The position numbers and the translations under genes are program-made. This document shows positions 10,313 through 14,411 of a stretch of DNA of 48,706 bases, one piece after another (the first letter of the stretch is position 1; every line of letters begins with the position of its first letter). This DNA comes from Candidatus Staskawiczbacteria bacterium. Lineage in GTDB: Bacteria > Patescibacteriota > Minisyncoccia > Minisyncoccales > Staskawiczbacteraceae. The notes under the pieces are model-generated. The model was not told the origin of the DNA. It searched no databases and saw nothing but the letters and a program-made list of their open reading frames with translations. The stretch is from contig JAPLYZ010000020.1 of the NCBI GenBank assembly GCA_026395295.1, forward strand, positions 1-48,706, in the 5' to 3' direction.

Positions 10313-11653
10313 TTAAAATTTATCTGCTAATTTATAAATGTCTCCTGCGCCCATAATAATTAACACATCGTCGGATTTTATATTTTTTTTAACGTAGCTT
10401 TCCGTTGCGCTTAACGAAAAATATAAGATATTTTCTTTGCTAATTTTCTTAACTAATTTTTCAGATGAAACCTCTGAATTAATTTTTTTGGTCTCCCTTC
10501 CTGCCACGTCATAAATATCTATGATAATTATTTTGTCTGTTTGAGCTTTGCGGAAAGTTTTCACAAAATCATTGAATAAATAATAAGTTCTTTGATGCTG
10601 GTGAGGCTGAAAAACACACCAGATGGTTTTATCAGGATACTTCTCTCTTGCAGCTTTCAATGTTGCTGAAATTTCACTGGGATGATGCCCATAATCAGAC
10701 ACAACTGTTATCTTTTTATCTCCGGCCTTGCCTTCTTTTACCTCGAACCTTCTCCAGGTTCCTTCAAATTCCGACAACGCGCTAAAAGAAAGTTCATCGG
10801 GAATTCCCAATATCCTCGCCACTTGCAAAACTGCCAAAGCGTTGGATATATTGTGTTCTCCGGGCACTTTTAAAATTTTTCTTAGTTTTTTTGCTTCACC
10901 GTCATTGCGAGCGAAACGAAGCAATCTTTGATTTTTGTCATTCCCGCGAAAGCGGGAATCCAGATTGCTTCGTCGTCCGAAGCTCCTCGCAATGACACTT
11001 AAATTTTTATCGTCACCGTTAAATACCAAAAATCCATCATCCGACAGTCGCATAATAAAGTCCCTGAACGCTTTTTTGACATTGGAAAAAGTCTTAAAAT
11101 AATCTAAGTGCTCTTTATCAACATTGGTTACCACAATAATTTTTGGCGAGTAGTGCAAAAAAGATGAATCGTATTCGCAAGCTTCAATAACCAAAAATTT
11201 CCCTTTGCCTTCTCTAAAATTACTGTTTCCAAACTCTTTTACTTTTGTTCCAACGATGACTGTGGGGTCGAGCCCGGCTTTTGCCAAAACTAAAGCCAGC
11301 ATTGCGGTTGTTGTGCTTTTCCCATGAGCTCCGGCAATTGCAATTGTGTAATATTCTTTTGTTAAATCTCCTAAAGCCTCGGGGTAAGACAAACATTCAA
11401 CCCCCTTCTCTTTGTAAAATTTTAACTCGGGGTTATCTTTTTTAACAGCAGGACTATAAACCACTAAATCCAGATTTTCTTTTACATTTTCAGCGGAATT
11501 GCCAATAAAAATTTTTACTCCTTTTTCTTTTAAAAAATCTGTGATTTCCGAAGCAACCAAATCAGAGCCACTCACCTCGTGGCCTTTTGACAAATAGTAC
11601 TGAGCCAGTGCCGACACCCCGATTCCGCCTACGCCAATTAAATGTATCTTCAT
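10313..11653 (-). CDS. murC: UDP-N-acetylmuramate--L-alanine ligase; start at MKIHLIGVGGIG; carries a 32-codon palindromic repeat in frame
   Basis: IGVGGIGVSALAQYYLSKGHEVSGSD, AGAHGKSTTTAML, TNVDKEHLDYF, VPGEHNISNALA, YGHHPSEI. Confidence 0.93.
   Translation of the reverse strand: MKIHLIGVGGIGVSALAQYYLSKGHEVSGSDLVASEITDFLKEKGVKIFIGNSAENVKENLDLVVYSPAVKKDNPELKFYKEKGVECLSYPEALGDLTKEYYTIAIAGAHGKSTTTAMLALVLAKAGLDPTVIVGTKVKEFGNSNFREGKGKFLVIEACEYDSSFLHYSPKIIVVTNVDKEHLDYFKTFSNVKKAFRDFIMRLSDDGFLVFNGDDKNLSVIARSFGRRSNLDSRFRGNDKNQRLLRFARNDGEAKKLRKILKVPGEHNISNALAVLQVARILGIPDELSFSALSEFEGTWRRFEVKEGKAGDKKITVVSDYGHHPSEISATLKAAREKYPDKTIWCVFQPHQHQRTYYLFNDFVKTFRKAQTDKIIIIDIYDVAGRETKKINSEVSSEKLVKKISKENILYFSLSATESYVKKNIKSDDVLIIMGAGDIYKLADKF
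10901..10996. repeat. Palindromic repeat element nested inside murC
   Basis: Outer arms GTCATTGCGAG...CTCGCAATGAC with AAGCAATCT...AGATTGCTT, inner perfect hairpin ATTCCCGC-GAAA-GCGGGAAT (10940..10959); total 96 bp = 32 codons. Confidence 0.9.
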
Positions 11654-11660
11654 ATTATTT

Positions 11661-11831
11661 TTATTTTTTTGGCAAGTGTTTTTGGAGGCACTCATCGCAA
11701 ATGCCATGAGTTATTCCCGACTCGCCCTCAACTTCTTTTTCTCCTATTTCTTTTCTACACCAAGCGCAAACAATTTTCATAATCGCTTTTTTACCTTCTG
11801 GTTGCTCTTTCCTTGTTTCTGAATTTTCCAT
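11661..11831 (-). CDS. 56-aa small zinc-ribbon protein not in the supplied ORF track
   Basis: Reads MENSETRKEQPEGKKAIMKIVCAWCRKEIGEKEVEGESGITHGICDECLQKHLPKK*; CxxC...CxxC. Confidence 0.7.
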   Translation of the reverse strand: MENSETRKEQPEGKKAIMKIVCAWCRKEIGEKEVEGESGITHGICDECLQKHLPKK

Positions 11832-11912: not shown

Positions 11913-12482
11913 TTACAATTTTAGATTGTGGGATTCTAAAATTGTGTAAACAGGCCCGCCTCTTTTCATTTCTGATTCCATTACTTCAATGGACTCCACA
12001 TCGAATGGCAAATCAAACATTCCGTTTATTTCCGGTCTTTCTTCTGGTTCAATCTGTTTCCATGCAAAAGAGCTAATACGAGCCAAAGTAATATGCGGAG
12101 CGAATGTCCTATTTTCCGGCACAAATTTAACTTTTTCTGTTAAAGAATTTTCCAGGTCTTCGCGAAGCAAAGACAGTTCTTCTGACTTCTCCCCTTCCGC
12201 CCAAACCATTTTTGGAGGCAACTTTTTCGGAGGACCATACAAAATCTGATTTACATTCAAAGAAAATGAACTGTGCCTTTCTGCAACTTCTTTTGCAACC
12301 AAACAAACTTCGCCGATTTCTTCATCGGTCAAAGTGCCCAAAAACTCCAAGGTAATATGCAAATTATCTTTTGGCGTCCATTTCGCAGGAAGTTCCGCAA
12401 ATTTTTCCGAATACGCAAACAACTCTCTCTTTACTTCCTCCGGCAAATTTATAGCAATAAAAACTCTGTGTCTCTTTTCCAT
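11913..12482 (-). CDS. thpR: RNA 2',3'-cyclic phosphodiesterase (2'-5' RNA ligase family)
   Basis: Two HxT motifs: NLHITLEFLG and PHITLARI. Confidence 0.88.
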   Translation of the reverse strand: MEKRHRVFIAINLPEEVKRELFAYSEKFAELPAKWTPKDNLHITLEFLGTLTDEEIGEVCLVAKEVAERHSSFSLNVNQILYGPPKKLPPKMVWAEGEKSEELSLLREDLENSLTEKVKFVPENRTFAPHITLARISSFAWKQIEPEERPEINGMFDLPFDVESIEVMESEMKRGGPVYTILESHNLKL

Positions 12483-12550: not shown

Positions 12551-12584
12551 GTTCATAATTTACGCGATAGCGTATTTTATGAAC
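12551..12584. repeat. Imperfect palindrome, left copy
   Basis: GTTCATAATTTACGCGATAGCGTATTTTATGAAC; arms GTTCATAA/TTATGAAC, inner TACGC-GATA-GCGTA. Confidence 0.9.
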
Positions 12585-12599
12585 TACCTTAAAATTTAA

Positions 12600-13145
12600 T
12601 TATTTTATTTTAAACAATTTTTTAAAATACGCTTCGTTGTCGACATATTCCAATACAGCAAAACGAACAAACTTATCAAGCTCAAAATAATTAACTAAAA
12701 GCTCTATTTCCCTTTTACATTCTACCGGAGTTATAAAAACGCTTTTCTGGAGTTCCCGAAAACCAATGAATTTTAGCTTGCGGCGCAAGGCATCTCTGCC
12801 TCTTTTATATTTTTCTGGGATATCAAAAGACACCATCCTCCATTTCCCGTCCCACTTTTCTTTTTTATTCTTAAGATTGTTTAAACGAAAGCCTAACGAT
12901 TTTAATTTCCCTTTTTTAGTTAAAGTCAATCTGACGAATCCATTTTTAGAAACCTCTTTATCAATAAGATCTAATTTATATAGATACTTAATCCCTTCTG
13001 TTAATTCCTGTTTGCTTATTTTATTCCATTCACGGGAAATAGCCCCTAAAACTCTTCTCTGTTGCCCCGGAGTAATACTATAACCAAAAGCAATGCCGGC
13101 CAACAAAAGCAGTAAAATTTTTTCTTTGGTTACATTCATATACAA
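12600..13145 (-). CDS. PaaX-like winged-helix protein with Cas2-like C-terminal domain
   Basis: N-terminal wHTH; KWRMVSFDIPEKYKRGRDALRRKLKFIGFRELQKSVFITPVECKREIELLVNYFEL resembles Cas2/PaaX ferredoxin-like fold. Confidence 0.75.
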   Translation of the reverse strand: MYMNVTKEKILLLLLAGIAFGYSITPGQQRRVLGAISREWNKISKQELTEGIKYLYKLDLIDKEVSKNGFVRLTLTKKGKLKSLGFRLNNLKNKKEKWDGKWRMVSFDIPEKYKRGRDALRRKLKFIGFRELQKSVFITPVECKREIELLVNYFELDKFVRFAVLEYVDNEAYFKKLFKIK

Positions 13146-13215
13146 CTATTTAGCTTTTTATATTTTTTCATGACTTTTTTATATCTTAATTAACAGTATC
13201 ACAAAACACCAGCCA

Positions 13216-13249
13216 GTTCAATAATTACGCTATCGCGTGAAATATGAAC
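13216..13249. repeat. Imperfect palindrome, right copy (inverted relative to left copy)
   Basis: GTTCAATAATTACGCTATCGCGTGAAATATGAAC; same GTTCA-N6-ACGC-N4-GCGT-N6-TGAAC architecture with loop TATC = reverse complement of GATA. Confidence 0.9.
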
Positions 13250-13357: not shown

Positions 13358-13564
13358 TCATTCACTCAACCAAGGAAGCAAATCAATCACTTCGACATCT
13401 TTGGATTCATGCCACTCGCCGTCGAAGTGCACGCGCTTACCAACTGGTCGGTTGTTTAATCCCTCAGGATCTTGATGGGCGAGACGTATTACTACATCCC
13501 TCGGTTCCCCACCTTTGACTTTGACCCTGAGCCTGCAGGTTTGTCGGCACTGAGTTATGTCCAT
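13358..13564 (-). CDS. Small hypothetical protein
   Basis: 68-aa ORF with strong upstream SD (AAAGGAGG) and a downstream hairpin followed by a T run. Confidence 0.5.
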   Translation of the reverse strand: MDITQCRQTCRLRVKVKGGEPRDVVIRLAHQDPEGLNNRPVGKRVHFDGEWHESKDVEVIDLLPWLSE

Positions 13565-13706: not shown

Positions 13707-14411
13707 ATGGCAAACAAGGAAATTGCGAAAATATTCAGAGATATGGCGGAGTTGCTCAATATTCGGGGCGATAGCGCGTTTCATATAAATGCTTACATAA
13801 AAGCCGCTGCGTATTTGGAGGCTTTGCAAACTGATGTTTCGGAGTTGTACGGTAACCCTCCTTCGCCAAAGGCTTCGGAAGGGCAAAAAAACAAATGGAA
13901 AGTTTTTTTGGTTCCAAAAATAATTGGTGATAAAAACGCCAAGAAAATTGAAGAGTATATAAAACACGGAAAAATCAAAGAGTTTGAAGAATTAGAAGAA
14001 GAAACAGCAATTAGGCAAGTCATCACACATTTTTTTATGTCAAAAGGGTTAAGCTTGCAAGAATTGAAAGAAAATGCTAAAAAGAGGAAAATAATATATT
14101 CCAGATTTACCAAACCAGCTAAGCAATTGCTGGAATTGGCTGGCTCAATTGAAAAGGCAAAATCTGCCATTGATACTGTAGCACAATGGGCAAGCACCAG
14201 AAAACTTGATTATGCCATTGAAACCGTTTTCAAAAAATGGCTGGAATTAGACAGATTAAAACCAAAAGAAATAGTTAAAAAACCATTTTACAAAGGCGAC
14301 CCCATGATTTGGTCCGAATCTAAAAAGAAATGGTTTGTAATTTCAAAATACGGCGAGTGGTTAGAATTCGCCGACAAACAATCCACTATTGAGTGGAGAA
14401 CTATAGAATAA
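13707..14411 (+). CDS. Hypothetical protein with N-terminal PolX-like helix-hairpin-helix segment
   Basis: NKEIAKIFRDMAELLNIRGDSAFHINAYIKAAAYLEAL ... KKIEEYIKHGKIKEFEEL resembles the PolX N-terminus; no polymerase catalytic domain. Confidence 0.6.
   Translation: MANKEIAKIFRDMAELLNIRGDSAFHINAYIKAAAYLEALQTDVSELYGNPPSPKASEGQKNKWKVFLVPKIIGDKNAKKIEEYIKHGKIKEFEELEEETAIRQVITHFFMSKGLSLQELKENAKKRKIIYSRFTKPAKQLLELAGSIEKAKSAIDTVAQWASTRKLDYAIETVFKKWLELDRLKPKEIVKKPFYKGDPMIWSESKKKWFVISKYGEWLEFADKQSTIEWRTIE

Follow-up and report, generated by a model that had tools for sequence, protein, structure and literature searches.

Palindromic elements described from Rickettsia (RPEs) lie in-frame in housekeeping genes, and we know of no mobilising protein assigned to them. 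They are about 150 bp long (PMC10969869). In the REP/RAYT system (TnpA-REP, REPIN), a single gene is bracketed by short palindromes and solo copies of these are dispersed in the same genome, the gene being mostly inherited while the palindromes spread. TnpA-REP is an HUH enzyme with a catalytic Tyr that acts on single-stranded hairpins (PMC8266576). The PaaX repressor combines a winged helix with a Cas2-like middle domain, and CRISPR Cas2 has a ferredoxin-like domain with the pattern D...R...G..Q.SV(F/W). Our literature search, which covered no preprints and few subscription papers so that an earlier description elsewhere is possible, found no paper joining PaaX, Cas2 and palindromes, and no description of such a system.

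Here we analyse a palindrome-bracketed gene in the window, a stretch of 48,706 nucleotides that is one contig of a 903-kb Candidatus Staskawiczbacteria genome (G000, 97.6% complete). This genome carries nine genes of the same winged-helix/Cas2-fold family. Genes of the family are privately paired with palindromes, these palindromes are dispersed and inserted in-frame in other genes, and whole units are gained or lost. We modestly favour a system that resembles REP/RAYT but relies on an unrelated protein of the Cas2/PaaX fold, which would recognise and probably mobilise its own palindromes.

Results

The window unit

The unit lies between two host genes, and the features of the region are:

11913–12482, minus strand: LigT-like 2',3'-cyclic phosphodiesterase, flanking host gene (Pfam LigT_PEase)
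12551–12584: downstream dyad copy GTTCATAATTTACGCGATAGCGTATTTTATGAAC, core GATA, 0 mismatches to the architecture below (shuffles expect 0.00)
12600–13145, minus strand: gene for a 181-aa protein whose winged helix is N-terminal and whose Cas2-like (PaaX_M) domain is C-terminal (Pfam PF20803, E=9e-22)
13216–13249: upstream dyad copy GTTCAATAATTACGCTATCGCGTGAAATATGAAC, core TATC, 0 mismatches (shuffles expect 0.00)
13707–14411, plus strand: HHH_8-domain host gene flanking the unit opposite the LigT-like gene (Pfam HHH_8; matches in 38 of 38 genomes)

Both copies have the 34-bp architecture GTTCA-N6-ACGC-N4-GCGT-N6-TGAAC. The sequence-only reading, which had reported two such palindromes with opposite loops (GATA and TATC) around a single gene, was exact in its positions, and the alignment scores of the pair (45 inverted vs 29 direct) agree with the orientation it gave. 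The left copy lies 15 bp beyond the stop codon and is loosely extended outside by ACTGG/TACC, and the right copy lies 76 bp ahead of the ATG at 13139, the likely start codon. As the N6 stretches pair only in part, the window repeat has dyad symmetry around an imperfectly paired spacer and does not form a clean hairpin. The LigT-like gene is a conserved neighbour, with synteny kept in most relatives examined, and close relatives have it directly next to the HHH gene, with no unit in between (the gap in G008 is 41 bp). No aromatic catabolism operon was seen near the window unit.

The protein has a winged helix and a Cas2-like fold

The winged helix and Cas2-like fold, first proposed from the translation, are backed by Pfam and by structure prediction. 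An AlphaFold2 model built from 27 window and locus sequences had a mean pLDDT of 87, and its best solved match in Foldseek was E. coli PaaX (8a39; probability 1.00, E=1.6e-3), with Cas2 chains and VapD next. A phmmer search of the PDB with the single window protein found nothing. The match of the window protein to Cas2 PF09827 was weak (E=0.0014), it scored below Cas2 profile cut-offs, and at 33.4 bits against a cut-off of 264.55 it is not a member of the PaaX equivalog TIGR02277.

Over 96 bracketed relatives, D97, W100, F105, D106, R115, R119, Q131 and S133 were invariant or nearly so; the window protein has the motifs DGKW and FD(106)IP, followed by R115, R119, Q131 and S133. An alignment check of the Cas2 catalytic Asp, which the initial reading had suggested, showed D106 to be kept in 94 of the 96, together with the Cas2 core motif residues R115, Q131 and S133. 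The conserved residues reproduce the core pattern of Cas2, Asp included, and D106 is a putative catalytic residue. It is Asn in two bracketed proteins, L012 and L030, and the L012 palindrome family is dispersed nonetheless. Neither an HUH motif nor an invariant Tyr was present among the conserved columns of the 96 proteins.

That the nearest solved structure is a repressor favours the main rival of a mobilising protein, a PaaX-like regulator with its operators. This PaaX-type transcription factor would autoregulate or loop as a dimer at its own gene, the solo sites would form its regulon, and its operators would coevolve and need not move. We regard such a regulator as credible but unlikely, on evidence given in the sections below. 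That Cas2 relatives include nucleases would likewise suit a module for defence or self/non-self discrimination, with the Cas2-like protein cutting palindromes that are left unprotected or marking the DNA of the host as self. However, the protein's own host sites would then be cut, the unit contains no partner methylase, cas1 or toxin-antitoxin pair, and PADLOC gave weak Cas2 models as the only best matches for the window protein. The self-recognition module as first posed is not supported, and we consider it, as part of this defence reading, very improbable. The gene cas1 (PF01867), noted at the outset as not visible, is absent from the whole genome, and a CRISPR adaptation module was rejected for this reason.

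Family genes are flanked by their own repeats

For each gene, the flank before it was compared with the flank behind it, a shared repeat being called at a score of at least 36, and flanks cross-paired between genes served as the control. Matched flanking repeats were found for 82% of 98 genes from 36 genomes, compared to 1.3% when cross-paired, and for 83% of 78 named loci from Parcubacteria-type genomes, compared to 0.9%, some of these loci coming from the same genomes as the 98 genes so that the two sets are not fully independent. About 18% of genes were without a strong repeat pair. Strong palindromes (score at least 14) stood on both sides of 24% of family genes, compared to 0 of 71 neighbouring control ORFs. 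The association of palindromes with Cas2-like/PaaX-like genes, conjectured from the one locus, therefore extends over the family, and the opposing possibility, that palindromes occur at random with respect to the gene family, fails. The family domain was present in 35 of 116 genomes over the phylum.

Bracketed proteins are approximately 180–200 aa long. Among 20 loci across the phylum, matched repeats were found for 9 of 13 short proteins but for none of 7 longer PaaX_M homologs of 205–249 aa (Fisher p=0.004, the length split having been chosen after the result was seen). These long homologs, 4 of 7 of which have S or N at the D106 position, are a natural negative control, and their lack of repeats within the same phylum counts against the regulator.

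The repeats combine a shared core with private outer boxes

The repeats are dyad-symmetric and 34–46 bp long, and each gene has its own family. In a profile computed over 263 centred copies, position ±3 was C/G in 90% and paired in 98%, position ±4 was paired in 95%, positions ±5 to ±8 paired in about 73%, and positions ±9 to ±18 were 80–92% paired with gene-specific sequence. The repeat thus consists of a shared core, RCNNNNGY, then a loose spacer, then private outer boxes one helical turn out. The commonest cores were ACGATCGT, GCTATAGC, GCTATCGC, GCGATCGC, GCCATGGC and ACGGCCGT. The peaks of the dyad profile are 11 bp apart, and two peaks spaced by one helical turn suggest a dimer on duplex DNA; such 11-bp periodic dyads would also fit a dimeric regulator. 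Outer-arm sequence tracks protein relatedness, weakly. A coevolution with the outer arms specific to the winged helix was considered and rejected, as the N-terminal correlation is real (Mantel 0/500) but inseparable from that of the C-terminal domain.

The median unit span was 680 bp (5–95%, 625–774 bp), and the rear repeat begins a median of 8.5 bp past the stop codon. This repeat is as regular as the front one, which is not what a regulator acting at its own gene would lead one to expect. Direct repeat pairs were commoner than inverted pairs (59 vs 27, 134 genes), so the opposite orientation seen in the window is not a general rule and strict inverted-repeat ends were rejected.

The repeats might also be terminators or mRNA-end hairpins common to a gene family, and a single loose terminator-like match was found, on the left window palindrome. 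Yet T-runs accompany the repeats in 11% of cases against a background of 10%, the core has no loop, the spacer is often unpaired, the sequence is gene-specific and copies lie inside reading frames. These data contradict the alternative, raised with the original description, that the pair functions only as bidirectional terminators, and we find any terminator role barely credible. A search for known RNA families gave sub-threshold chance matches only.

Solo copies are dispersed and inserted in-frame

The window motif had 7 exact copies in the genome and 11 with up to 3 mismatches, and a read-backwards control had 0. The scan of the genome covered 728 of 903 kb, and in these 728 kb eight of the nine resident families had dispersed copies, with 0 in the reversed control except for one weak family. 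The scan found 32 strong palindromes, compared to 0 in shuffled sequence, and more than half of them belong to these families. In some families solo copies far outnumber genes. Orphan strong palindromes outside the nine resident families occur in G000 at C1:13243, C17:21645, C11:44582 and C19:7186, and are possibly remnants of lost units.

Of 32 solo copies in the 728 kb, eight are in-frame within long ORFs, namely those of rnhB, trmD, tsaD (hit by two separate families), gyrB, uvrC, mnmA and a radical-SAM gene. In RnhB (17 aa), TsaD (17–19 aa) and TrmD, the palindrome corresponds to an insertion missing from solved homologs, and the inserts of RnhB and TsaD are also absent from most congeners. 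In G005 and G015 the same rnhB loop holds related palindromes whose outer boxes have changed, and in G015 the unit resident beside rnhB has the same outer box as the palindrome in the loop. Copies in-frame in rnhB, trmD, tsaD, gyrB, uvrC and mnmA would be useless as operators, and wherever homologs were compared they are insertions, which argues against the regulator. In its favour, some stray copies lie approximately 20 bp ahead of start codons, a position that suits operators, among them several window-family solo copies upstream of zinc-ribbon genes.

These window-family copies in G000 number five (L003 at C13:7536, L006 at C17:27615, L007 at C17:29454, L008 at C10:8199 and L001 at C8:1817). 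They lie near the starts of paralogous zinc-ribbon-like genes of approximately 490 aa, about 20 bp upstream in most, and were probably either duplicated with the gene or used as operator. The one such gene scanned had no Pfam match. Separately, a distinct palindromic repeat, GTCATTCCCGCGAAAGCGGGAATCC (peptide LDSRFRGND), lies in-frame in murC at 10937–10961 of the window (ORF 10313–11707, minus strand), and recurs in the tsaD genes of G000 and G005 and in the G007 rnhB gene, where it reads SFPRKRES.

Solo copies follow the gene, and units are gained or lost

The exact window motif was found in only 2 of 36 family genomes, G000 (7 copies) and G004 (6 copies), with zero elsewhere. These two genomes are the ones that own the cognate gene, which lies between the same host genes in both. 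A search of this and related genomes, as first suggested, therefore shows that solo copies exist and follow their cognate gene, and with the private flanking palindromes this upholds the REP/RAYT-like organisation originally proposed. The solo copies of G004 are at sites other than those of G000, contrary to what a regulator would predict, and window-family copies resemble others in their own genome more closely than those in the other genome (4.25 vs 5.64 differences of 16, p=0.009).

Unit copy number varied from 0 to 12 among congeners. At one site (C11:53 kb), a unit is present in G000 and G011, while G008, G010, G003, G009 and G006 have a gene junction of 0–15 bp with no gene and no palindrome. 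At this site the G000 copy includes about 430 bp more, so the site is not defined to the base and a target duplication cannot be called; the empty sites show no visible duplication, and their flanks have diverged. Of the empty sites and target-site duplications that the sequence-only reading had proposed looking for, the former were thus found, in five relatives, and a clean duplication was not seen.

Presence or absence of a whole unit at one site, patchy copy number and the finding of different units near the same host genes would each fit a complete IS-like transposon, in which gene and palindromic ends move as one 0.7-kb element and solo copies are ends left by deletion or excision. Against this, no near-identical gene copies were found within a genome, solo copies far exceed genes in some families, empty sites have no palindrome scar, direct pairs prevail over inverted ones, and the unit was not found in phages or plasmids. 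Classical insertion-sequence behaviour, with fresh identical gene copies and target-site duplications, was not observed, and we judge this transposon improbable. Several units are orthologous between species (that of the window and G004, and those next to rnhB), which indicates that the gene is largely inherited.

No phage relative was matched and no PHROG, the family occurred in one of 2.9 million viral contigs, and plasmid matches were to PaaX-type domains only; a virus or plasmid origin was rejected on these grounds. A model in which a solo palindrome is the pre-existing target (attB) was also rejected, as the empty sites of two units had no matching palindrome.

The spot upstream of rnhB repeatedly holds a family unit (L150, L155, L037, L034 and L156, in G000, G015, G002, G016 and G046). 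Their palindromes differ, and most share the same ACGC-type core. Islands next to palindrome units contain small orphan ORFs (68–95 aa), several of which have a TTGACA-type promoter (window 13358–13564; the L017 region, C11:53698–54128; C6:5488–5721; C10:75663–75914). At C6:5259–5825, two identical palindrome-bearing direct repeats bracket such an island without a PaaX gene, and its content is perhaps cargo.

Discussion

How might a REP/RAYT-like system of this kind work? We propose a module of approximately 0.7 kb, consisting of a palindrome, the winged-helix/Cas2-fold gene and a second palindrome. The encoded homodimer would bind its own repeat as double-stranded DNA, its wings contacting the private outer boxes (about ±14) and its Cas2-like dimer covering the shared core (±3/4). 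The protein may then cut or join DNA at the repeat, directly or with host repair, with D106 as the candidate for catalysis at the core. In this way repeats, and occasionally the whole module, would spread to new sites as copies and remain similar to one another in a given genome, the gene being mostly inherited and the palindromes dispersing, as in REP/RAYT.

A broader proposal, which we put forward tentatively and at slightly less than even confidence, is that this is an undescribed, phylum-wide class of element. In it, a Cas2-fold protein without Cas1 would recognise its private palindrome and copy it to new sites, some of them in-frame within essential genes, and a tiny genome would host many distinct pairs. 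If true, this would extend the roles of the Cas2 fold beyond CRISPR and toxins to that of a partner of dispersed palindromes, and the REP/RAYT lifestyle would have arisen a second time, independently. The presence of Cas2-like/PaaX-like genes in CRISPR-less Patescibacteria could be explained in this way, and the protein would be a candidate for the enzyme behind RPE-like in-frame insertions in these genomes. As many protein/palindrome pairs occur naturally, their specificity can be tested directly in vitro.

How does the family compare with the described systems? With REP/RAYT it shares the single gene bracketed by short palindromes, the solo copies dispersed in the same genome and the largely inherited gene. 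It differs in having no HUH motif or invariant Tyr, a Cas2/PaaX fold and several families per genome, and in a dyad of core and outer boxes that suggests recognition of the duplex. The in-frame palindromic inserts in housekeeping genes (rnhB, tsaD and trmD, compared to their homologs) resemble RPEs in placement, although the repeats here are 34–46 bp rather than about 150 bp and have a linked gene. PaaX has the same winged helix and Cas2-like middle domain and is the best structural match (8a39), but the bracketed proteins are approximately 180–200 aa, the window protein scores 33 bits against the equivalog cut-off of 265, and dispersed palindromes stand on either side of the bracketed genes. 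Finally, the ferredoxin-like domain and its residue pattern are those of CRISPR Cas2, from which the family is set apart by the fused winged helix, scores below Cas2 cut-offs and a genome with no cas1.
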